This document shows positions 816 to 20,824 of a stretch of 23,787 nt of DNA, piece after piece. Where the stretch lies: positions 1 to 23,787 of IMG/VR virus record IMGVR_UViG_3300037961_000502. One strand, written 5' to 3'. The DNA comes from a virus. Each line of letters starts with the position of its first letter. The stretch's first letter is position 1. The notes beneath the pieces were generated by a model, which was not told where the DNA came from, did no database searches, and saw only the letters and a list, made by a program, of their open reading frames with translations. Made by a program: the position numbers and the translations under genes.

Positions 816-3800
816 TTAAGGTTGTTTGAGATAATCGTATCTTCCTTTGAAGATTTCTTTTTGTGCTTGTTTAAGTTCTGGATACTCTTCAACTAAGTCT
901 CTCAGTGCCGTCGCTCTGTAAGCTCCTATTAACTGACTGACTGCGTTAATTCGTGGGGTTTTGCGTCCGAGTTCGTGCTTCATGCTGTATTCGGGCAACT
1001 TTTTGTATGTGTCACTGGTAACAAGAGCTCTTAGACGTTCCCTAAGAGTCTTTCCTCCTATTTTACGAGTGCTAACAAGCTCTTGAAGTCTGTCATACGC
1101 TTGGCGTCCATCTTGTTCGACGTTCTTTAAGCTTAGTCCGCTTCCCATGAATTTATGAGAAGGCTTGGTGAAACCATGAGCTAGTAGGGCAAGCTCGCGG
1201 TCTACAGGGTCTTTACTTTCTGAGCTAAAGAAGAAGGGGTCTATAAGTCCTCGCACTCCTCCATGTTGCTCCATCTTAATAGGCTCACCAAGAAAGTTAC
1301 GCTTCAACGGCATATTTGAGGCTTCTGCTCCGCTAGGAATACGCTTAAGCATATGGTCAAAGATGTTTCTAGTTTCGTAAAGCTGTCTGCTTTCTTGAAA
1401 GTTCATTGATTGATTAACAATGTTGGGAACTAATCCACCCATCATGCCTCCAATGAAACGCTCACCTCTGTTTTCAGCGTCAAAGATAGCCTTCATAGCT
1501 TTATCTAAACCGTCGAGATAAGATTTACTGAGAATGTTGTTTGAAAGTGAAGTACAGAACAACGAAAACATACGTCCTAACTCATCTGTCTCAAGCTCAT
1601 CGTAAGTCTGAGCGTCTTTGATGTCAGCTATAAGACCAATAGACGTAGCAACGGGGTCAAGTCTCTTATAACTCCACCACTTGTCGCCCACTTTGATTGA
1701 ATAAGGTCTCCACCCTGTCAACTGAAGTGCTTTGTTCTGTTCTAAGTTAGAAGGACCACCGCCAGTGATAACGTCGGGGTTGCTATTCATGTAGTGGAGC
1801 ATCATTGCACCCACGCCTACTGAAGTTGCTATTTTTCCTCGTGCTCTGGCGGCATCCATTGGGTTGTCGCTGTGAACGCCTTTTCTAACTTTATCGGTAA
1901 GCAACGCTTTTGTGTCCACTATAGGCTGAACTAGTCCGAGAGGAGAGCGTTCAATACCTGCGCGGAGGATGTTTGTGGGCGTGTTAAGGAACGGAACAAC
2001 GAAGCGTAGTAAAGGTAGCTGTTGTAAGCCGTAACCAACAACAGAACCAACTTTATTAACAACACCTTCATTACTTCTTGTTGTGAATGTGTTTTCTTTC
2101 GCTTGCGCCATGCTTCGTTCAGCAAGTATTCCCGCGTTTTCATCGAATACGTGGTCTTTCTTATACTGCTTTACGAAATCAGCTTGCGCTGTGCCAAATG
2201 TTAATCCTTGGGCGCGGGCTTGTTCAAAAGCTTCGCGGGTTATAGCGGCTTCCGAGTAAGCGTGACCGCCTTCAGTAATTAAGTCGTTAAACTTAGAGTC
2301 AATATATTTAGCTATGTCGTGACCGTCAGTTAGTCCTTTATTCATTGCTTCTAAAGCAAGCTCAGTCTTAGCATTTGAGCGGTAGGAAAGTTGCTTAAAG
2401 AACTCATCCCCAGTCAAAAGACCACGAGTAGGTAGGCGGACAAAGTGACCAACCATATTAACAGCCTGTCCTATTCCATCCAGTCGGTCAGAGTGAATAG
2501 CGTATGTACGGAATTGGTCGTCATCAAATACACGACTGCCTTCCATCAACATAGAGTCGTCATTCTTAAACGCTTTACCTGCGTATCTTAAGGACTCCCT
2601 TATCATTTCCATGTCAAACGCATACTGGAAAGCCGCTCTTGCTACCTTCCAATTACCTTGGGTTATTCCTCCTATTACGCCCCCACCAACAAGCTCTAAC
2701 TGTCTCATTGTTATGTTAATGACGTTACCCATAATGTTAATTGCTTGGGTTGTAGGACCAGAAAGCAAGGAGTTAATCCAATACTCCATAGTCATTTCCA
2801 TCATCTTGTTGCCTTTAACCTTACGGTTTGTGGCGGCGACAGACTTAACTAGTTCGTCAAAAGCTTCATCCTTTTGCCCTGCGCGGCGTAAAGCGTCGGA
2901 TACGTGTTGCTGACTGTCAGACATGACAAGTAGTCTAACTAACTTGTCCATCTTCATTTGACCAATAACACCCGTCATTCTTTGGTTACGGTATTTGTAG
3001 ACATCTTCTGAGCTTTGGTTGGCAGTGTCGATGCCTATCTTTTTCTTTACGTTAAACCCAAAGCGACCTCCGAGGAGTTTACGTTGCACTAAGTTTAGTC
3101 CTGCATCTTTACCCATCAAAGACCATACGCGCTGTGCTTCTACCATCTGGTCGAGCAACGACATTAACTCAGCCTCTAACACTTGCTTGTCTTTCTTGGC
3201 TATGTTGGCTGTTTGCTTTGCGTGCGCGTCGATTTCTTTTGCTTTGTCTACAGCCATCCGAGCAAACGAACCGATGATTTCTTTAGCGGCGGCTTGGTCA
3301 CTACGGAACTGCTCCATAGCTTCTTGGTTGTTTTTCATCTTTTCGATGTGACGTGACATTGCCGCCGCGTCTCCGCCCAAAATGTCGGCATACTCTTCTG
3401 TAGCTGTATTAAGCTCTTTGGCTGTTACTGGCTTTGTTTTTGTGCCTACTTCATCTAGGTGTGTAGACATTGCCTTCATCAACGCCCAAGCCCCGTTAGT
3501 AGACTTTAAATTCTTACAAGCACTGTGGATTGCTTGTGTACCGCCAGTGATTTTACCATCGCCAAGTTTCATAAACTTAGCTAGTCCGTTGATTTCTTTG
3601 AGAAGCTTTGCTCTTTCTAGGGCGGCATCCTCAAGAATCTCACCAGTAGTTTCTCCTCTAGGTGTTGCAGAATAACGACTTCTAGAGTGCATCCTTGATA
3701 CCTCTGCGGCGGCATCCGCTACGTTTTCAGCCTCGTCAATAGCCCGCTCTGCGTTCATCTTTTTACCAGTAAGAGGGTCGGGAATGTCTTTTAGGTCTAT

Positions 3801-5432
3801 TCTTCGCAGGTCGTTAGTGAACTGCATGACATCATCAAGAACTGATTGTGTGCCTTCGTCCGTCCCTCTGACTAGTGTTTTTGCGGCGTTTTTAAATTGT
3901 TTCCACAATGAACTCTGGTCTATTCCTGCTGTAGCGTTTAGTTCGCGGGCGAAAGCGGTGTTAGTCATCGCCTCGGCAACAAACTCGTGGACAGTGAAAA
4001 GGTTAGCCGCGCTTGCGGGGTCGAGAGCGTGAACAACATCGTCGTTAGCCGCGTTGAGCATCCCTCTGCCTCTGAATACGGCTGTCCTACCTGTTCCTTT
4101 TTCGCGTAGTTTATTCTCTACTTCTCTAAAGGATGGAAAGTCTTTAATATTCTTGTATTCAGCCTTGGTAAGTATGTTGTAAGCTCTGTTGCTTTCAATC
4201 ATTCCAAGGTAATTAGCTACAAGCTTTTGTATTCCTTCTGTCTCTGGCGTTACCTTTTTATTAGCAAATTCTATTAGAGCGTTGTAATACTCTTCGCCCT
4301 TCAATTTTTCTATTCCGCCGAGTGCTTTAGATAACTTTTTAGCTGTAATAGCGTGAATAACTTCGTGAGTAAGAACACGTGAGTTACTTATTGATTTATT
4401 CTGCCTTGGAAGAGTTATAGCGTTGTCGTTGATGTCGTAGTAACCCGCGCTATGGTCGGGGATACGGTCGGTAAGTCTGAAATCTACGGCACTGAGGTCT
4501 TTGCCGTGTACATCTAATAATCTTTTTAAAAGTGGGGTATACCTAGATTCTTCTGAGATGGGGCTAGTTGTAAATGCCCTTACTACAGAAGCGGCGTCTG
4601 TTGTATCGCTACCGCCTCGGAACGCTGTATTAGCAACGGCTTCAAAGTTTTGATTGAACGCCTCTATTTCTATCTCATCTCCTTTAGCAAACGGAGCAGA
4701 GTCATCATAATCAAACTTGTCTTGAATGTCTTTTCTATATTCACCGAGGAGCTTTGTGTAAGTGTCTTTTTCGGTCTCGCCTATCTTAACCATCTTTCTT
4801 TGTTTCTTAATATTCTTAAGACCAAAGAGTAACTCTTTTGCATATGAGGCGGCTTTAAATGCGCTTCCTACTCCTGCTTCTAATAGCAATCCTTCTGCTA
4901 CGTTCTTAAAGCGTCCTTCAATTTCTCCGTCATCTTCATCAGCGGCAAGATACTCGGTAATGGCATTTTCAAAGAAAGGATGAGATTGAACTAGGTTAGA
5001 TAAACGTTCTTCGTTGCCCTCAAAAGATATAAAGTCACTTGCCGCTCCTGCCGCCGCAAACTTAGAGTATTTAGCTACGGTCGGGGCTACTTTAGAGACA
5101 TTGGCTAATCTACCTAGTTTACTTACCTTACCCGCTATTCCGAGAGCAGGGATAAAGCCTGTAGCAAACTGAGTGATACCGTTAGTTAGCTCACCTGCCC
5201 AAGTCTTACTATGTCCTAGTAATCGTTGTTCGTCCCAATCGGGTAGGGTGTCATAAGAAAAATAATCAGCAAGATTATAAACGCTGTGTGCAAAATCTTC
5301 CACACCGCGAGGCACGCCTAAAACGGCATCGGCTATTAAGCTAGGGCTTTCTTGTTCTTCTTCTTCTCCCATAGGGGAGAAAGTGCGTCCTATTGATGTA
5401 ACTGGGGTAGGATTAAATACTTTTGATTTCAT
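816..5432 (-). CDS. Internal virion / DNA ejection protein in the gp16 position, with a metallopeptidase-like HExxH domain
   Basis: This 1538-aa protein fills the T7 gp16 slot between the gp15-like gene and the tail fibre, and is likely packaged in the capsid and ejected with the DNA. The N-terminus contains an acidic patch (EEEEQE, residues 23-28) and Gly/Ala-rich hydrophobic stretches (about 85-130). A zinc-peptidase motif HEVIH lies at 356-360 and is followed by VHEFVAEA, with EFVAE at 483-487, a spacing compatible with a gluzincin whose third ligand is a Glu. T7 gp16 instead has an N-terminal lytic transglycosylase; I see no E...GLMQ-type motif here. The C-terminal half resembles large phage ejection proteins: LLSGPTTQAINIMGN near 885, VVPFLNTPTNILRAGIERSP, and WRPYSIKVGDKWWSY near 1240. 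The ATG overlaps the upstream stop (ATGA), implying translational coupling; AAAGAAAAATAA precedes it. Role as ejection protein is well supported by order; peptidase activity is inferred. Confidence 0.85.
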   Translation of the reverse strand: MKSKVFNPTPVTSIGRTFSPMGEEEEQESPSLIADAVLGVPRGVEDFAHSVYNLADYFSYDTLPDWDEQRLLGHSKTWAGELTNGITQFATGFIPALGIAGKVSKLGRLANVSKVAPTVAKYSKFAAAGAASDFISFEGNEERLSNLVQSHPFFENAITEYLAADEDDGEIEGRFKNVAEGLLLEAGVGSAFKAASYAKELLFGLKNIKKQRKMVKIGETEKDTYTKLLGEYRKDIQDKFDYDDSAPFAKGDEIEIEAFNQNFEAVANTAFRGGSDTTDAASVVRAFTTSPISEESRYTPLLKRLLDVHGKDLSAVDFRLTDRIPDHSAGYYDINDNAITLPRQNKSISNSRVLTHEVIHAITAKKLSKALGGIEKLKGEEYYNALIEFANKKVTPETEGIQKLVANYLGMIESNRAYNILTKAEYKNIKDFPSFREVENKLREKGTGRTAVFRGRGMLNAANDDVVHALDPASAANLFTVHEFVAEAMTNTAFARELNATAGIDQSSLWKQFKNAAKTLVRGTDEGTQSVLDDVMQFTNDLRRIDLKDIPDPLTGKKMNAERAIDEAENVADAAAEVSRMHSRSRYSATPRGETTGEILEDAALERAKLLKEINGLAKFMKLGDGKITGGTQAIHSACKNLKSTNGAWALMKAMSTHLDEVGTKTKPVTAKELNTATEEYADILGGDAAAMSRHIEKMKNNQEAMEQFRSDQAAAKEIIGSFARMAVDKAKEIDAHAKQTANIAKKDKQVLEAELMSLLDQMVEAQRVWSLMGKDAGLNLVQRKLLGGRFGFNVKKKIGIDTANQSSEDVYKYRNQRMTGVIGQMKMDKLVRLLVMSDSQQHVSDALRRAGQKDEAFDELVKSVAATNRKVKGNKMMEMTMEYWINSLLSGPTTQAINIMGNVINITMRQLELVGGGVIGGITQGNWKVARAAFQYAFDMEMIRESLRYAGKAFKNDDSMLMEGSRVFDDDQFRTYAIHSDRLDGIGQAVNMVGHFVRLPTRGLLTGDEFFKQLSYRSNAKTELALEAMNKGLTDGHDIAKYIDSKFNDLITEGGHAYSEAAITREAFEQARAQGLTFGTAQADFVKQYKKDHVFDENAGILAERSMAQAKENTFTTRSNEGVVNKVGSVVGYGLQQLPLLRFVVPFLNTPTNILRAGIERSPLGLVQPIVDTKALLTDKVRKGVHSDNPMDAARARGKIATSVGVGAMMLHYMNSNPDVITGGGPSNLEQNKALQLTGWRPYSIKVGDKWWSYKRLDPVATSIGLIADIKDAQTYDELETDELGRMFSLFCTSLSNNILSKSYLDGLDKAMKAIFDAENRGERFIGGMMGGLVPNIVNQSMNFQESRQLYETRNIFDHMLKRIPSGAEASNMPLKRNFLGEPIKMEQHGGVRGLIDPFFFSSESKDPVDRELALLAHGFTKPSHKFMGSGLSLKNVEQDGRQAYDRLQELVSTRKIGGKTLRERLRALVTSDTYKKLPEYSMKHELGRKTPRINAVSQLIGAYRATALRDLVEEYPELKQAQKEIFKGRYDYLKQP

Positions 5433-8400
5433 TTATTTTTCTTTTTGTATTCTATTGCGGCTTTAATTTGTTTAACAACACGTCTGATGTTACTTGGCTG
5501 TCTCTTCCAAGCGTTTTGCTCCTTTGCGGTCATACTAGCTAGGTTTACTTCATCCCTTGCATTAGCCATTCGAAGCTCTTTGTTCATCATTGAGTCAAAC
5601 TTATCTTTGGATATTTTATGCAATATTTCTTTTTCGTTCTTAGGAACGCCAACAAACTTACTAGCCCAATCTTTGTTAGATTTTATGACGCCCGTATCGC
5701 CTACGGGTATATTCTCCTGTGGAGTACCCATGCTTATTAGCTCATTATCTCTGTCTTCCCTCCGTTTACCTGCAATAAGGGTCGTAGTGGCATCCCCAGT
5801 TTCCCGCGAGGCGGCTCGTGTGACATCTTGGTTAGCTTGCTTTACGCTCGTATCGTTATAGTCCGCTTTGACAACACGTCTATTTGGGTAAGTGATGATG
5901 TTGTCATCTGCTTCAGAAAACGCCTCCATCATTTTTTGTCCTTCAAGCTTAAGTTTTTCGGCTTTTGCTCTGAAGTTTGCTTCTTCTCTTTGCTGAGCTT
6001 TAGCTTCGCGTTGTTTTGTAGGACTTATGGATGTTGCCTTGTCTGCGGCGGTTCTCTCACGGGTAATAACTTCGCTACCATCTAAGGTGCTCTTGTGTTT
6101 AAACACACCGTTACCGTGATTAACGTATCCTGCTTTCTCTAGCTTAGCGATGAGCTTCTCGTGTCCATCCATTTGCTTCTGCCAGAAGTCTTGAAGCTTG
6201 TCTTTGCCTTCTTCTCTGGCTTTGTTTCGTTTGGTTGTCCAAGCTTTTCGACTGCTGATTGGGTCGGTAACAACGCGAGCAACTCTTCTCTTAATTACTG
6301 CGTTAATTTCCTTTGCACTTCCTTGATAAATATTATCAAAGAAAATACCTACTCCGTCTTCTGGTTCATATTTACCTACGTTAGTAACAGACTGGAACTT
6401 ATCGTATATCTTGGAGATGTTACCCATAGCTCGCTTCGTCTTTTGAGCGGGCATACCTACAAGTTTATTGACGTTTTCAAAAGCTTCTGTAAGAGGACCA
6501 AACTTCGGACTCATGATAGTAGACTTACTCCAGTTGATAGAGCTAATGTCTATTGTGTTGTCAAACGAAGTAGCCTTTGCAGTTCCGTCCGCAATTGCTT
6601 GCGCTTCTTTGTAGGTCTTAGCGTCTGTATTTATGTGTCTAAAGTTAAATATAAGCGTGTCGTTTTGTTTATTTGTAGCACGATTGAACCACTCTTGGCT
6701 TAAACCTGTGGTTTTTCTCCACCGTGTTACCTGTGCGTCCGTAAAGCCCTTTCCGCCTTTAACAAACTCTGTCTTAGTCTTTTGAAGCCATATAGATTCG
6801 CCAGTAGGGTTGCCCTCGTAGTCTCTGATGTCAAACTTAACCACGCGCCCGTTTTGGACTTTGTGAAGAGCTTGTCTAAACCCGTCCTGTGGTCTGAACC
6901 CTTTGTTCATAGGAATAGCTGTAACTTGACCGTTCAAAATGTTTTGAAGCGTGCTACGATTATATCCCTTTTCGGTGAGGTAGCCTTCCTTGCTTATATC
7001 GGTGTGCGATATTGAGCCTCTTATTTCTACTGTTTCACCCATTCCTTTGACGGAATACCTGTCGCTTGTCCTGCCGCTTTCGTCAAACTTTTTGCCGTAG
7101 TCAGGGTCTCTGTTGTATTCTATATCCCTTGCGTCACCTGTGCTTGACTGCGATGTTTTTGATTTCATCTCAGCCATTTCATCCATCGTCTTCTTAATTG
7201 AAGCTTCTTGTGCTTCCAATTCCTTCACTCTGTCTGGAAAGTTTGCACGAACCTCCGCTTCTGTCATTCCTGCTCTCTGCGCTAGCGTCTGGACGGCTGT
7301 AGGCTCGGCGGTTTTTACAGGTCGAGAACCTTGTATAAACAAGTCTACGCCTTGCTCTGAGGGCTTTGGCTTTGGCTTGGGCTGTGCGGCTTTCTTAATC
7401 GGACTGCCGCTTTTTCTGAAAGCAACAAACTCCGCTAAAGCTTCAGCGTGGTTAGGTGATTTACGATTATAATAAAGAAGAGTCTTATTATTTAAAACTC
7501 CTGCATCTACTTGTTCTAATATCCACTCACGTTGTTTCGGGCGGACATCTTGAAAGTCAGTACCCGCTAACCACTTCTTGTAGTTATTCACTGCTTCTTG
7601 AACTGTGTCTACTCTTATAGCGGAGCTATTAAACTGTTTGAGGTGGCTAAATGGGTTTCCGTAGTGCTCATCGGTGTTTAACTTGCGATGTACGTCAATT
7701 CCTTTGCCATCTGCCTCCATCCTCTGCGCTCCAACTATGCTTTTGGAGTGTTTAACCGTCGGCTTAAATTCTGAAGTTATACTTTTTAAATCAAGTTCAC
7801 CCACGTTTATTGGTTCTTGGGGTGTTTTAGGCTTGTAGTTAAACCCTTCTACTGGGATTAAATCACCAGTATTTTCAGAAGAACTACCAGTTTTTGCTCT
7901 ACGGGCTGTCTCGTTACTAATGGCGTTAGCTGTATCTACCGCTCTAGCAAAAGTTGCGTTGGTCTTATCCAGTGTGCCTCTGTTCGCTTTAATAAAAGCC
8001 ATTGCCGCGCTCTTGAGGAAAGAAAGTTGGTCTTCTGACAGTTCGCTAATCTTTTCTCCTTTTATTTCGAAGTCGGGGCTCTTAGGGTCTTTTGCCTTTA
8101 GCTTAAAGTTAAAACCCTCTACTGGGATGGGGTCTTGTTTAGGCTTGAAGTTAAATCCTTCTACTGGAATTATTTCTGGCTCTGGGGTGTTTTTAGGTAT
8201 TCCTGCGGCATCTTGGGCTTCCTGTATCCTTACAATCTGGTCGGCTTTAGCTTCCATCTCAAGATATAAATCGCGGTCACCAGTCCTAAACCTATACTCT
8301 TCACCTGTAGCTTTACGGTATAACTTGTTAGCTACATCTTGACGTGCAAAGATAAACTCAGCGGTTTCTTTGGGTTTTGAATCTAGGTCTATACGCCATC

Positions 8401-11400
8401 CTCCCTTTTCCCATTTATACCCATCTACTTTTTTAGGGAGACCTCCACGCATAAACCAACCTTCGATTCTTTCAAAAAGGCTTTCTTTGTCGCCTGTTTC
8501 AACCTCATCAATTACCTCATCAATATCTTTTTTCGGAGTAGGTGCGTCGGGCTTTGGCTTGTCGGGCTTTGGTGCGCCACCACCATCGGGAGGTGGAGGA
8601 GGAGGAGGGGTGTCATCTCCGTCTGGCTTTGGACCGTCACCGTCTGGCTTTGCAGTAGGCTCTAGGTCAATGTGCCTGTCGTTTTTATTGATGCCCTTAA
8701 ATCTGTTGTAACCTTTTTGGTAATCTTGAAGTCTTTGCGCAAATTCGTTGCGTTTATCTAGGGTGTCTAAACTTTCGTAGTGCTTCTCAATTATTTGGGA
8801 TAAATCTTGACGTGACTTACCTTGACGGAACGCCTCATCCATAAGCGGTATATCTATTCCCTCTTTTCTCATTTGTCTGCTAAGAGACTCATAAGCTTCC
8901 TCTAGGAGTGGGTTAACGCGCTTATCTCCATTGAGCACTTGCCTAACTACGTTAGTCTCGCGTGCGCTTAATTCTTCTAGTTCTAGGAGTTTGTTTTGTC
9001 GCGCTAGGTCTGCATCAAATTGACCGATAAACTTCTTTTGGTCATTGACGGTCATTTTGTTAAATTCGTCAAAGACCTTTTTTCTATAATTTTTATAATT
9101 TAAAAAGTTACCTGCATTGTCTATTCGGCTGATGTTAAACGCCGCGCCCATTTCTATAATAAAAGCATCGTTAAACGCGGCAGAGCCTTGACCACCAAAC
9201 AAGTATAGCTCAGCGGTCTCTCTGCGTATCCCCTTGTCGTTCATCATGCCGTCGTTAATGAGTTCCATGACTCGTTTACGGTCGGCGGGGAGTAAGTTTT
9301 CTGGGTCAACACCAAACTCTCTTAAGGTGTCTATGTCATAACGACGTGCCAATACTCCGAGTTCTGGGACTGTTAAATCTTCTAAATTAAAATTACCTCT
9401 TTTGTTTAGTCTTCCTATTCCAATTAGAGCTTCTCTTTCCGCTTTTGTGAACTTACCGTTAAGAAGCATTTCTGCTACTTCTGGACCAGACTTACCCATC
9501 ACCTTTGCTCTTAAGCCCGCATACCCATAAAACTTTTTACTGGTTAACGTTAGGGCGGTAACTCCACCAAAGAAGGCACTGGCTACTTTACCCATGCCCT
9601 CTACGTCTTGTGATTCAGCAATTTGCTCTCCTGCCGCCGCGCCCACTGCAACCATTGCTTCGGTTCTAAAGTCTTTTCCTGCGCGTTTTTGCCACCAAGC
9701 TAGTGCGTCGTCCGTTGTTTTAAGACCTATTTTACTTATTGCTTTTGTTGCCCAACGCCCGCCGCCGCTTGCCACTTCTGTACCGTATCTTAGTACTTTT
9801 TCAGTGATGTAGGGGGCGTCGTCCAAACGAGGGTCGGTGAGGTCTACGCCAAACACGTTGTCAGTTATGACGTTCAAACCTTTTTCAAGAGCGTCACGAC
9901 GGGCTTGCACGCCTTTGTTTATTTGTTCTTCTCTTGTAGGCAGGGGATTACCGTCTTTGTCTACCGCACCTTCTGGGGTTTGTATTCCGCCGCCTGTCTC
10001 TGAAATTAGCTTATCAAAGAAAGCAACTATGTCTAAAAATCCCTGTGAAGGTTGACCTATGAAAGCGTCCGCGTTCCCCAGTCTAGCTCGTTTACCAAAC
10101 TGGAAGTTATAGGCTTCCATCGACATGATTTTTCCAACTTCATCAACGAGTTGGTCAGCTTCTTCTCCGCCTACATTTTCTATTTCTGTTTTAATCAGAG
10201 TTTTATAAATCTTTTCTTCTTGGGGAAGGTGACCCGTGCCGTTATAGCCTCCGTCTTTGGCGGTTTCTTCTCTATTGTCTAAGAGCTTATCGTGTATTTG
10301 CCCTAGGCTCATATTCGCGCCAAGAGGCACGTTGTCGTTACCATAAATCTCTCTAGCAACGTCCATGAGGTATTCGTCCTCTCCCATTGTTTTTTCAAAA
10401 TCAATGTCTGGATGAAGGACAAACTGACGTCCTGCTAAAACATCTTGTAAAAGAAAGTCTCGCGTTGGGAGTTCTGGGATTACAACGCCGTTGTGCTCAT
10501 ATAATCCTTCTTCATTGGGAACGAGTAGATTTGAGGGAACTCCAACATTTTCAAATCTTCGCTTGAGTTTAGCGTTTATTACATCGGCTTCATCTGAACT
10601 AAGAGGGACAAGAGTTCTGCCCTTTCCTGCGCTCTTACCCCTAGTCAACGAAATAATATCTTTAACTAATTCCTCTCCCGCTTTGTTTTTATAAACATGA
10701 GCACCGTAATAATTATTGGCTTCGATTATGCTTTCGTCGTCTGCCTGTCCCGCAATGTTAGCGTCAAACGCTTCTATATCCTCCAAAGCTTTCGCTGACT
10801 GGTCTTTATTGGGATTTAGCTCTCTAGGAAGCCCTACTCTGTTTGTGCCTTTTTGAGTTGGAGAGGGTATTGGGTTGTATTCTTTAGGCACTGAGCCTAA
10901 TCTAGCTTTTTGTAGCTCTGCAAATTTAGCATCAAAACGCGACTCTCCTCCTTGGAGATAAGCGTCTTTAAGTAATTTTTCTTCAGTCTCATCTGGGTCA
11001 AAGTCTTTTATTACTTGCTGAATTTTTGCGTCTCCGCCATAAGCGTTTGAAGCCTCTTCCATCATTTTCCCGTAAAGAAGTTTGGGAAACTTTTCTTTCA
11101 TGAATACAGGCATACCCTCACGCGCCCACATAGTTCCAATTTCTTGAGCCGTTGGAATAGGCTCGCCTTCTGCGCGTGGTTGTGATAGTTTTTCTCTAAT
11201 AAACGCGTTGAGGTCTTCCTGCATAATTGCGCGTATCTCTCCAGTTTTGAGAGCAAACGAGCCTGTAGGCGTGTAATGAGGGACATCCTCGCCCGTAGTC
11301 GAGTTTATCTTCATACGAGTGGTAAAATAATTACTAAAATCTAGTCCATTCTCTGAGGACATTGTGTCTATGACGCTGGGCTCAAACTGGGCTTCTAAAG

Positions 11401-12814
11401 TCTCTGAAGTGGCAGTCAAAGCGGCATTAGTTGCTTGTTCTATCTGGGATTTTAATTGTCTGTCTTCGGCATCCTTTTTTTGTTCTGCTAGCCGTGCTTC
11501 TCTTTCTTCTTTCTCTTCAATGCTTGTTGCACGCTGTAAATCGGCATATTCAATATTTGCACGAGTAGCAAACAAACCCTTAGCTATTCTTAGCTTTTGA
11601 GGGTCATCCTTATACATCTCCTCAAGCTTGTCATTAGTTTCGTCAACGAATCCCGATAAGCCTCTAGGGTCTGTGCCTATGTTGGGGTTTGTGTAGGCGT
11701 CTGCGTCCTCGTCAAACTTATTTAAAAGTTCTTCTACTTCGCTTTGTACCGCTACTTTTGCGTCGTATTCGTCTTGTTCTTGTTTTTCTCGTCCAAGCTG
11801 TTCGATGGTAGCAAGCAACTGTAGGTATGCAGGGTCGTCCGCTTTAAGCTTGCGGTTGCCGTATTGTAAGCCTCCTACAAGTGCTTCTGCGGCGGCTACT
11901 GCGGTAAGATTATCAAAGACAACTTTATTGTTAATTTCCTTGTAAAAGTGTTTGGGAAGACCTTTAAGAACCTCGTCTGTTTCTGCTTTTGTCCAAGTGC
12001 TAGACATATCGAAGCTTTTCTGCAAAGCTTGAGTTATTAGGGTAGACTTACCCACCATATCAGGCATGAACAGCACGTCAGATACGCTTTGACCGAACAT
12101 CCCTTGAGCGGTGGTTTTTATAATGCCATCTAACTGACTCGGAAAACTTTCGATAAGGTTTTCTTGAGCTTGCATCAAGCCCTCTATAACACCCGCTTGT
12201 CTGTTAACATTTGACAATACGTCGCCTTTTTCGGCTAGAAAACGAGCGTTAAAGTCCGCGTTAATCTGGCGTATTTGGTCAGCGTTTAAAGTCCCCGTTC
12301 CTTTACCAATTCCATAGCTGTCTATAATAGCTTGGTTCTTTTTATTCTTTACGGGATTTCCAGACGCTACCCTGCCAAAGTCTTCGTAGAGTTCATTCAG
12401 CATATCAGCGGCTTCTGGAATATACGCCGCGCCTTGTGACTTCTCTATAGCGTTACGAGCAATAGGGTTGAGACCAAAGATTCCCAACTTGCGATAATAA
12501 TCGTCTAGTGTTTGCTTATTTTCTGCGTGCTTGCGCTTCTGCTCATCTGTAAGTTGATTATATGTAACTATTTGGTTCTCAGCTTCTTGAGTGTAACCAC
12601 GAGCGATGTTTTGGACGCTTTCAGATGCAAACTTACCCAAAGAATTAGCTAGTTCTGTCCATTGTTTAGCTTCGACGTTGTAAGGCTCAACGTAGTTGTT
12701 TCCTGCTCCACCTGCTACTTCTGTAGCTCTTAGTTGAGCTTTAGGTAGGGGACGAGGTATTACTTGCCCTTCGGCTTGTCCGAGGATGTTTTGAAGTTCT
12801 TTTCTTGTACTCAT
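5429..12814 (-). CDS. Giant internal virion / DNA ejection protein in the gp15 position (2461 aa)
   Basis: The gene follows the gp14-like gene by 3 bases and overlaps the gp16-like gene by 4. At 2461 aa it is more than three times T7 gp15 (747 aa). Residues 1 to about 950 are mostly helical and resemble gp15-type internal core protein, with a charged coiled-coil-like stretch near 430-455. A Gly/Ala-rich, possibly membrane-active segment lies near 1050-1100 (MVAVGAAAGEQIAE). A Pro/Asp/Lys hinge with seven consecutive prolines covers 1389-1429. The motif IPVEGFN(F/Y)K occurs at 1549, 1563 and 1653. A globular domain with GNPF at 1719-1722, a W-containing middle and HAEALAEFVAF at its end (about 1690-1798) resembles DUF4326-like domains. 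A Pro/Lys linker (PKPKPKP) follows; the rest, to the basic C-terminus (KAAIEYKKKNK), is unrecognised. A Shine-Dalgarno site GAGGGG lies 9 bases before the ATG. Ejection role rests on order and the N-terminus; extension functions are unknown. Confidence 0.85.
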   Translation of the reverse strand: MSTRKELQNILGQAEGQVIPRPLPKAQLRATEVAGGAGNNYVEPYNVEAKQWTELANSLGKFASESVQNIARGYTQEAENQIVTYNQLTDEQKRKHAENKQTLDDYYRKLGIFGLNPIARNAIEKSQGAAYIPEAADMLNELYEDFGRVASGNPVKNKKNQAIIDSYGIGKGTGTLNADQIRQINADFNARFLAEKGDVLSNVNRQAGVIEGLMQAQENLIESFPSQLDGIIKTTAQGMFGQSVSDVLFMPDMVGKSTLITQALQKSFDMSSTWTKAETDEVLKGLPKHFYKEINNKVVFDNLTAVAAAEALVGGLQYGNRKLKADDPAYLQLLATIEQLGREKQEQDEYDAKVAVQSEVEELLNKFDEDADAYTNPNIGTDPRGLSGFVDETNDKLEEMYKDDPQKLRIAKGLFATRANIEYADLQRATSIEEKEEREARLAEQKKDAEDRQLKSQIEQATNAALTATSETLEAQFEPSVIDTMSSENGLDFSNYFTTRMKINSTTGEDVPHYTPTGSFALKTGEIRAIMQEDLNAFIREKLSQPRAEGEPIPTAQEIGTMWAREGMPVFMKEKFPKLLYGKMMEEASNAYGGDAKIQQVIKDFDPDETEEKLLKDAYLQGGESRFDAKFAELQKARLGSVPKEYNPIPSPTQKGTNRVGLPRELNPNKDQSAKALEDIEAFDANIAGQADDESIIEANNYYGAHVYKNKAGEELVKDIISLTRGKSAGKGRTLVPLSSDEADVINAKLKRRFENVGVPSNLLVPNEEGLYEHNGVVIPELPTRDFLLQDVLAGRQFVLHPDIDFEKTMGEDEYLMDVAREIYGNDNVPLGANMSLGQIHDKLLDNREETAKDGGYNGTGHLPQEEKIYKTLIKTEIENVGGEEADQLVDEVGKIMSMEAYNFQFGKRARLGNADAFIGQPSQGFLDIVAFFDKLISETGGGIQTPEGAVDKDGNPLPTREEQINKGVQARRDALEKGLNVITDNVFGVDLTDPRLDDAPYITEKVLRYGTEVASGGGRWATKAISKIGLKTTDDALAWWQKRAGKDFRTEAMVAVGAAAGEQIAESQDVEGMGKVASAFFGGVTALTLTSKKFYGYAGLRAKVMGKSGPEVAEMLLNGKFTKAEREALIGIGRLNKRGNFNLEDLTVPELGVLARRYDIDTLREFGVDPENLLPADRKRVMELINDGMMNDKGIRRETAELYLFGGQGSAAFNDAFIIEMGAAFNISRIDNAGNFLNYKNYRKKVFDEFNKMTVNDQKKFIGQFDADLARQNKLLELEELSARETNVVRQVLNGDKRVNPLLEEAYESLSRQMRKEGIDIPLMDEAFRQGKSRQDLSQIIEKHYESLDTLDKRNEFAQRLQDYQKGYNRFKGINKNDRHIDLEPTAKPDGDGPKPDGDDTPPPPPPPDGGGAPKPDKPKPDAPTPKKDIDEVIDEVETGDKESLFERIEGWFMRGGLPKKVDGYKWEKGGWRIDLDSKPKETAEFIFARQDVANKLYRKATGEEYRFRTGDRDLYLEMEAKADQIVRIQEAQDAAGIPKNTPEPEIIPVEGFNFKPKQDPIPVEGFNFKLKAKDPKSPDFEIKGEKISELSEDQLSFLKSAAMAFIKANRGTLDKTNATFARAVDTANAISNETARRAKTGSSSENTGDLIPVEGFNYKPKTPQEPINVGELDLKSITSEFKPTVKHSKSIVGAQRMEADGKGIDVHRKLNTDEHYGNPFSHLKQFNSSAIRVDTVQEAVNNYKKWLAGTDFQDVRPKQREWILEQVDAGVLNNKTLLYYNRKSPNHAEALAEFVAFRKSGSPIKKAAQPKPKPKPSEQGVDLFIQGSRPVKTAEPTAVQTLAQRAGMTEAEVRANFPDRVKELEAQEASIKKTMDEMAEMKSKTSQSSTGDARDIEYNRDPDYGKKFDESGRTSDRYSVKGMGETVEIRGSISHTDISKEGYLTEKGYNRSTLQNILNGQVTAIPMNKGFRPQDGFRQALHKVQNGRVVKFDIRDYEGNPTGESIWLQKTKTEFVKGGKGFTDAQVTRWRKTTGLSQEWFNRATNKQNDTLIFNFRHINTDAKTYKEAQAIADGTAKATSFDNTIDISSINWSKSTIMSPKFGPLTEAFENVNKLVGMPAQKTKRAMGNISKIYDKFQSVTNVGKYEPEDGVGIFFDNIYQGSAKEINAVIKRRVARVVTDPISSRKAWTTKRNKAREEGKDKLQDFWQKQMDGHEKLIAKLEKAGYVNHGNGVFKHKSTLDGSEVITRERTAADKATSISPTKQREAKAQQREEANFRAKAEKLKLEGQKMMEAFSEADDNIITYPNRRVVKADYNDTSVKQANQDVTRAASRETGDATTTLIAGKRREDRDNELISMGTPQENIPVGDTGVIKSNKDWASKFVGVPKNEKEILHKISKDKFDSMMNKELRMANARDEVNLASMTAKEQNAWKRQPSNIRRVVKQIKAAIEYKKKNK
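7826..8170 (-). repeat. Three copies of an IPVEGFN(F/Y)K motif inside the gp15-position protein
   Basis: The peptide IPVEGFNFKPK is encoded at residues 1549-1559, as IPVEGFNFKLK at 1563-1573, and as IPVEGFNYKPK at 1653-1663. The DNA copies differ mainly at third positions, so the peptide rather than the DNA appears to be conserved. The copies sit in low-complexity linker between a helical segment and the GNPF domain. Short repeated linear motifs in a linker suggest docking sites, processing sites or register repeats; the sequence alone does not decide which. Confidence 0.85.
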
Positions 12815-12817
12815 AGT

Positions 12818-13429
12818 TTAATACCCCTCATCGGCGGGGGGTGAGGGCGGTGTTAAAGCACCTATTTGCAATTCGTTTCGAACGTTGGTTTGGTATTGGG
12901 AGTAAATGCCTGTAGCAGTGTTTGCTAAGCCAAGAAGAGTTGCCCCGTAGTTAGGCTGAGCGATAGGTTTGTTAATGTTTCCAACTTCATTAGAGAACGC
13001 CATTGCTTGTTGTTCTAATCCAAAGTCGCGAGATATATTGCCAAACTGAGCTTGTCTTACTAAGCCAAAAGCGGTGTCTCCTTCTTGTCGGGTGTAGTCA
13101 GCAAGCATGGCATTTACGCTTACGCCGCTTTTGTTGTTTTCAATCGCACTGGTAGCGGCGGTAGCACGAGCGGCTTCGGCTCTTTTAGTGTTTTCAACTA
13201 ACTGTTGTGTTAAGACTTCGTTTTCCATGCCTTGCTTAACACGCGAAGCTGTGATGTCTGCTAAGTGTTTTTGACGGGCTCGCTCTGTTGCGGCGGCTTG
13301 AGCCTGTCTTTGAGCTTTGGCGGCTACTTGTTGCCCCCGAATGGAGAGCATAGCAGACCCAATCGCCGTAATAGCAGAGGTAGCCGCACCCACTTGGGCG
13401 GCGGTAAATCCTGCAATTGCTACACACAT
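12818..13429 (-). CDS. Internal virion protein, gp14-like
   Basis: The protein has 203 aa, close to T7 gp14 (196 aa), and lies between the gp13-like and gp15-like genes, exactly as in T7. The N-terminus is Ala/Gly-rich and hydrophobic (AGFTAAQVGAATSAITAIGS, residues 6-25), followed by a long Ala/Gln/Arg-rich helix (RGQQVAAKAQRQAQAAATER). This fits the known family: gp14 is ejected from the T7 head and forms the outer-membrane pore of the ejection channel. The C-terminus is Pro-rich (TPPSPPADEGY). The start ATG follows an A/T-only leader (AAATAAAATAAT) with no visible Shine-Dalgarno site. The assignment rests on size, composition and strict synteny. Confidence 0.85.
   Translation of the reverse strand: MCVAIAGFTAAQVGAATSAITAIGSAMLSIRGQQVAAKAQRQAQAAATERARQKHLADITASRVKQGMENEVLTQQLVENTKRAEAARATAATSAIENNKSGVSVNAMLADYTRQEGDTAFGLVRQAQFGNISRDFGLEQQAMAFSNEVGNINKPIAQPNYGATLLGLANTATGIYSQYQTNVRNELQIGALTPPSPPADEGY
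12825..12847 (-). promoter_or_regulatory. Short hairpin whose 3' arm holds the ribosome binding site of the gp15-position gene
   Basis: On the minus-strand RNA, CCCTCA (12847-12842) can pair with TGAGGG (12830-12825) across an 11-base, C-rich loop. The Shine-Dalgarno candidate GAGGGG (12829-12824) overlaps the 3' arm and sits 9 bases before the ATG at 12814. The hairpin covers the last gp14-like codons, so ribosomes finishing that gene would open it. There is no U-tract, so it is not a terminator. The pairing is seen in the sequence; the coupling role is inferred, and a 6-bp stem is modest. Confidence 0.4.
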
Positions 13430-20065: not shown

Positions 20066-20824
20066 TTATATTACGTTAGACATAGCTATTCGGTCTTGAA
20101 CCTCTTGACGATATGCAGGGTCATTAGCATACCGAGGGTCACTCATCGCTTTTGTAATTTGCGAGGTGGAACCAAATGGTATGACTGAGGGTCCTTTTGT
20201 GCCACCTTGGGTTATTGTAGGAGGTTTGCCTCCCGCTGATACCATCTGAGCGTACAATCCTTTAGCCGCTACTTTAGCTTGCGCTAGGTTGCCGCTTTCG
20301 ACCATTGAGTTATAAGCGTCTTGCTCGTCGGCAGACAGGTTTTGCTCTGCCCAAGTAAGCATAGAATTGTAAGCTTCTTCTCCGCCTACCTCGTTGCGTA
20401 CTTGGTCAGCTTCGTTAGAAACTAGAGCCGCTTGTCCTGCTATAAAACTCTCTACAATCTCGCGAGGTATACCCGCCTCAGCCAGTGAATTAAATGATTC
20501 CTCGGTAAGATTCCCAGTTTCAGTCCACTCGTCTGTGGCAGAAGAAATAGCCTCAGACATAGATGACTCACTTACAGCGTCTATTTCTTCGTCTGTAAGC
20601 TCTTCTTCTACTTCTTCGGTCTCTCCTCTGGATTGCTTAGCCTGTAGCTCTTGATAAGCTTTAGCTAGGTCTTCTGGAGATTCAAACTTCTCATCAAGCC
20701 ACTCTGGGCGGTCGCCCTGTTGTGCCTCGGTATTAGCGGCGTCTTGTTGCGCCGACTGTTCTTCCAAGGAGATATTTTCTCCTTCTGTTTTCTCGTTGAT
20801 TTCAACGGACTGGTACTCTGCCAT
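20066..20824 (-). CDS. Capsid assembly scaffold protein (T7 gp9-like)
   Basis: The 252-aa protein is strongly acidic, with runs such as EEVEEELTDEEIDAV, as scaffolds of this family are. The N-terminal DRPEWLDEKFESPEDLAKAY segment is the typical opening of gp9-type scaffolds, and the C-terminus carries TKAMSDPRYANDPAYRQEVQ, the conserved capsid-interacting end. It follows the portal gene directly (stop TAA, two bases, ATG) and has a good Shine-Dalgarno site, GAGGAA, 8 bases before its start. In the T7 pathway it drives procapsid assembly and leaves before DNA packaging. Confidence 0.92.
   Translation of the reverse strand: MAEYQSVEINEKTEGENISLEEQSAQQDAANTEAQQGDRPEWLDEKFESPEDLAKAYQELQAKQSRGETEEVEEELTDEEIDAVSESSMSEAISSATDEWTETGNLTEESFNSLAEAGIPREIVESFIAGQAALVSNEADQVRNEVGGEEAYNSMLTWAEQNLSADEQDAYNSMVESGNLAQAKVAAKGLYAQMVSAGGKPPTITQGGTKGPSVIPFGSTSQITKAMSDPRYANDPAYRQEVQDRIAMSNVI

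Follow-up and report, generated by a model that had tools for sequence, protein, structure and literature searches.

A marine T7-like virus encodes, between its gp14 and gp16 homologs, a cysteine-free protein of 2461 residues in which a gp15-homologous N-terminal part is followed by ~1,750 added residues carrying a DUF4326-like domain. With moderate confidence, we consider this gp15 a carrier and the added residues an ejected cargo of the polyvalent type that would act on NAD/ADP-ribose products, probably in counter-defence. The basis of this reading is homology, domain context and the exclusion of cysteine. Delivered cargo is the best reading of the added length because the clade of the domain recurs, cysteine-free, in giant proteins of the injected type.

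The gp15-position gene and its neighbors

The window (the whole stretch of DNA analyzed, 23,787 nucleotides) is a 23.8-kb virus contig, IMG/VR record IMGVR_UViG_3300037961_000502, whose minus strand carries T7-type late genes. The features are as follows.

816..5432, minus strand: gp16 homolog, 1538 aa (phrog_6651, E 3.6e-57; 80 IMG/VR relatives)
3933..4475, minus strand: zincin-like region of gp16, residues ~320–500, by motif (HEVIH at residue 356, HEFVAE at 482)
5429..12814, minus strand: gp15-position giant, 2461 aa, cysteine-free (ORF and composition)
5432..7387, minus strand: residues 1810–2461 of the giant, with the basic end (relatives not found)
7388..7765, minus strand: DUF4326-like domain of the cysteine-free clade, residues 1684–1809 (profile, AF2, Foldseek)
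7826..7858, minus strand: motif copy 3, IPVEGFNYKPK, residues 1653–1663 (sequence)
8096..8128, minus strand: motif copy 2, IPVEGFNFKLK, residues 1563–1573 (sequence)
8138..8170, minus strand: motif copy 1, IPVEGFNFKPK, residues 1549–1559 (sequence)
8525..8647, minus strand: Pro/Asp-rich hinge, residues 1390–1430 (39% Pro)
8648..10705, minus strand: extra region before the hinge, residues 704–1389 (relatives not found)
10706..12814, minus strand: gp15 core, residues 1–703, firm for 1–369 (hhalign, hmmsearch --max, blastp)
12818..13429, minus strand: gp14 homolog, outer-membrane ejection protein (Pfam T7_gp14, 51.2 bits against a cut-off of 27; phrog_805)

The gp15-position ORF is a single intact frame of 2461 codons with a 270-kDa product, and T7 gp15 has 747 aa, which bears out the oversized gp15 of the preliminary description. 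The gp14 homolog lies directly upstream, tightly joined, and the gp16 gene, whose T7 counterpart encodes the partner co-ejected with gp15, overlaps that of the giant by 4 bases. GC and GC3 stay level over the gp15-position gene (GC3 0.35–0.42; 0.40 in gp16), and there is therefore no sign of a chimeric join. That assembly fused gp15 with a foreign gene is very improbable: although a fusion could not be seen twice because the contig has no close relative in the collections, the frame is intact, GC3 is even, both junctions are tight and cysteine is absent throughout.

The N-terminal 1382 residues gave no tblastn match among 50,697 phage records, as was also the case for the extension and for separate segments, and relatives were therefore gathered via gp16, yielding 80 IMG/VR relatives; 48 gp15-position proteins were compared. 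Residues 1–369 match the gp15 profile of these relatives (hhalign E 4.7e-7, probability 92.6), residues 49–703 match it weakly (hmmsearch --max), and blastp matched the window protein to the gp15 of one locus (L042; E 2e-7). The giant has both the position of gp15, between gp14 and gp16, and its sequence homology, which is weak beyond residue 369. The gp15-position proteins of the relatives have 543–1130 aa (n = 48), and a review gives 431–982 aa across 14 podophages (PMC8954989).

An extension of ~1070 residues, beginning at the hinge, had been proposed. Given that the gp15 homology ends at residue 369, or weakly at 703, the extra part instead begins at ~700 and comprises ~1,750 residues, so that the hinge falls within it. 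The segments 600–1400, 1390–1700, 1690–1830 and 1830–2461 match the profile of neither gp15 nor gp16.

The landmarks reported in the preliminary description are real: the hinge contains 22% Asp/Glu in addition to its proline, the motif IPVEGFN[FY]K.K occurs three times (at 1549, 1563 and 1653), YGNPF occupies residues 1718–1722, and the C-terminal tail is basic in composition, Lys/Arg making up 17% of the extension. The IPVEGFN motif was not found in any of the loci searched for it. Scanning IMG/VR for the extension, the region 1895–2260, gp16 alone or the N-terminal part revealed no close relatives, PHROGs and NCBIfam yielded nothing useful on the giant, and the AF2 model of residues 1867–2461, built without relatives, was not interpretable (pLDDT 40). 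The domain-wise search after the hinge named one segment, the DUF4326-like domain; residues 1431–1683 and 1810–2461, which make up about 900 of the ~1,030 post-hinge residues, have no detectable relatives, and neither has 704–1389. The whole architecture of gp15 plus extension was seen once in the collections searched.

HExxH, the motif of the zincin-like region, is present in 39 of 60 gp16s against 0.26 expected, and twice in that of L055. The virion RNA polymerase (vRNAP) of N4 also has an HExxH zincin-type domain (PMC12633501). Another gp16 (L017:7891-13830) carries a different insert, whose match to DUF7831 is strong (E 1e-35).

A DUF4326-like domain in giant phage proteins

A leave-one-out profile, from which the window was excluded, gives the window domain 148 bits, with 0 matches in 200 shuffles. 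Pfam DUF4326 (PF14216) scores residues 1680–1815 at 20.4 bits, short of the 25 bits that it requires, and we therefore call the domain DUF4326-like rather than a member. Its predicted structure (AF2, pLDDT 87.4) has the DUF4326 fold: the best Foldseek matches in BFVD are DUF4326 proteins (E 6e-5, probability 1.00, TM 0.5–0.6). The PDB gave nothing significant for the domain, by sequence or by fold. No relatives were found in 84,980 prokaryote genomes, in a scan that relies on short patterns and is thus no proof of absence.

The window domain shares with DUF4326, of the rhodanese-phosphatase clade, the predicted fold, GNPF[ST]H, Y..W and the final His. It differs in being embedded in a giant instead of standing alone and in lacking the C-x-C-x4-CH of the stand-alone phage members, in place of which it has YYNRKSPNH. 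Seven stand-alone DUF4326 proteins keep this motif, whereas the window domain and those of 20 sampled giants have other residues there.

Residues 1687–1797 match the interior of gp16 in two T7-like loci, L020 (48%) and L022 (38%). A scan with the alignment of these two found 12 loci and a second scan 29, and in 27 of the 29 the domain lies within a long protein (846–4665 aa), a count that takes in several proteins cut by contig ends and a few near-copies; in the other two (L134 and L138) it stands alone. The clade was sampled in 22 giant proteins of phages, most of which resemble gp16 or virion polymerases. In L094, a DprA/SLOG-like domain comes after the DUF4326-like one; in L096, a NADAR-like domain and a SLOG motif flank it; in L103, it has a T7-type RNA polymerase and a zincin-like domain on one side and a helicase on the other. 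Among these neighbors, the helicase exceeds its Pfam cut-off, NADAR, polymerase and zincin score under theirs, and the SLOG assignments are based on PHROGs and a motif. The L103 protein (L103:5684-13015) has 2443 aa and is cysteine-free over its polymerase-like, zincin-like, DUF4326-like and helicase domains.

Alternatively, the extension may be a structural enlargement, providing a larger core, a longer tunnel or DNA binding via its basic end, with the DUF4326-like domain recruited as a catalytically dead structural or binding module. This is a possible reading, although not one we would expect to hold. It is consistent with the wide variation of gp15 length among podophages (PMC8954989) and among the relatives compared here, with the missing C-x-C-x4-CH and with the Lys/Arg-rich composition, but unrelated giants carry the domain at differing positions and next to enzyme-like neighbors. 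In addition, HYGNP, His45 and His110 (numbering of A4) show conservation among the giants, a pattern that suggests a kept site.

Exclusion of cysteine

The window gp15 contains no cysteine in 2461 residues. Likewise, cysteine is absent from the gp15s of the relatives (0 of 39,573 residues) and from their gp16s (0 of 120,401; 88 sequences), from gp15 and gp16 of T7 and from gp50, gp51 and gp52 of N4; T7 gp14 has Cys2 only. For comparison, the cysteine content of gp12 is 0.35%, a rate at which the extension alone would be free of cysteine with P of about 0.02. The 22 giants with the domain contain two cysteines in 55,006 residues. The absence of cysteine from the giants' domain matches that from gp15 and gp16. 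For N4-type polymerases, the lack of cysteine is already published, together with an explanation by passage through the tail and periplasm (PMC3715699, PMC5795418); for T7-type gp15 and gp16, we found no such statement in the literature searched, although one may exist elsewhere.

In the tree, a fully supported branch sets the giants apart, so that one loss of cysteine suffices; the counts cannot be taken as independent of each other, and the loss in their domain may have been a single event. The stand-alone protein of L134 (L134:340-669, 109 aa) bears the giants' signatures HYGNPFSHL and R.WIL, yet its cysteine motif GCFCAPLYCHG is intact. Because the cysteines are lost, a cysteine mechanism is out. 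What remains is binding, some other chemistry or a dead domain of structural use, and the domain may be inactive if its catalysis depended on the cysteines now missing.

The window scaffold protein (20066-20824) is cysteine-free, as are those of T7 and 18 relatives (0 of 4,356 residues), and the absence of cysteine is therefore not specific to ejected proteins. The window gp16 (816-5432) has two cysteines, at residues 639 and 1293, unlike the 88 homologous sequences. In the window gp14 (12818-13429), the only cysteine is residue 2 (MC...), as it is in T7 gp14; this residue is a possible modification site.

An in-frame ATG at gp15 residue 1699 (window ~7720), with GGAG upstream, stands at the start of the DUF4326-like domain and is a possible internal start. 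The extension might then be made separately, or be cut off at the Pro-rich hinge, and act in the producing cell or stay un-ejected. We regard this as unlikely. The Pro-rich linker, the ATG and the zincin-like motif of the gp16 partner, which could be a peptidase, fit such a scheme; however, the start is the only one among 420 codons by a loose motif, which is within chance, and zero cysteines over the full length fit a shared fate of core and extension.

Proposed cargo delivery and related systems

The preliminary description also proposed that the extension delivers effector or anti-defence domains, with DarA/DarB of phage P1 as precedent; the likeness to DarA/DarB lies in the idea of defence-blocking proteins delivered with the DNA, and no link in sequence or domains emerged, the extension having had no tblastn match at all among the phage records. 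The delivery proposal has indirect and partial support: one module belongs to a clade of giant ejection-type proteins, with SLOG-like, NADAR-like, zincin or RNA polymerase domains in some, and cysteine is excluded as in ejected proteins, whereas most of the post-hinge length is without relatives. We also count the known polyvalent virion effectors in favor of the cargo reading (Iyer et al. 2017, PMC5512222).

In the mechanism that we propose, the N-terminal ~370–700 residues would form the core stack and later the periplasmic tunnel, and the ~1,750 added residues, divided by the Pro-rich linker, would be co-ejected. T7 gp15 forms a periplasmic tunnel, and its C-terminal region is on the inner-membrane side in the proposed models (PMC8954989); from this, we infer the topology of the extension, with the cargo presented at, or passed into, the cytoplasm. 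By the same analogy with a periplasmic tunnel, the extension may stay out of the cytoplasm. As to the ligand and the anti-defence role, our guess is that the likeliest targets of the DUF4326-like module are ADP-ribose/NAD-derived ligands, which it would bind or process, thereby blunting host defence during DNA entry. A role as stoichiometric sponge of a small-molecule signal is unlikely, since T7 carries only about eight gp15 copies, a number derived from PMC8954989. More tentatively, ejection through tail and periplasm could keep all delivered domains free of cysteine, and the domain could represent a resulting cysteine-free branch of the DUF4326/rhodanese-phosphatase fold that uses non-cysteine chemistry on ADP-ribose-type ligands and is interchangeable on gp15, gp16 and vRNAP-type carriers; we would not rely on this broader proposal.

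The order gp14-gp15-gp16, the N-terminal homology and the lack of cysteine are common to the window protein and the gp15s of T7 and marine Autographiviridae, but these have 431–1130 aa and the window protein has the long extra part with its DUF4326-like module. Like the polyvalent proteins (Iyer et al. 2017), which are multidomain and predicted to be packaged in virions, it has a domain of the NAD/ADPr conflict network; unlike them, its cargo would ride on gp15 and has only one named domain, the other polyvalent-type element here being the zincin-like motif in gp16. The virion RNA polymerase of the N4 type (gp50) is giant, cysteine-free and ejected and has accessory domains including a zincin. 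The window gp15 resembles it in being giant and cysteine-free but has no polymerase domain (no Pfam or PHROG polymerase match) and is not of this family; L103 joins an N4-type polymerase with the window's DUF4326-like clade.

A carrier role is thus suggested for a T7-like tunnel protein too, beyond gp16 or the giant polymerases. The domain family offers a natural experiment, with cysteines conserved in free-standing proteins and none within the giant ejection-type proteins. Long cysteine-free stretches may serve, with caution, as a cheap hint for injected phage proteins in metagenomes. A cysteine-free giant of 4665 aa with a staphylococcal-nuclease-like domain (L122:2307-16304) was also observed.
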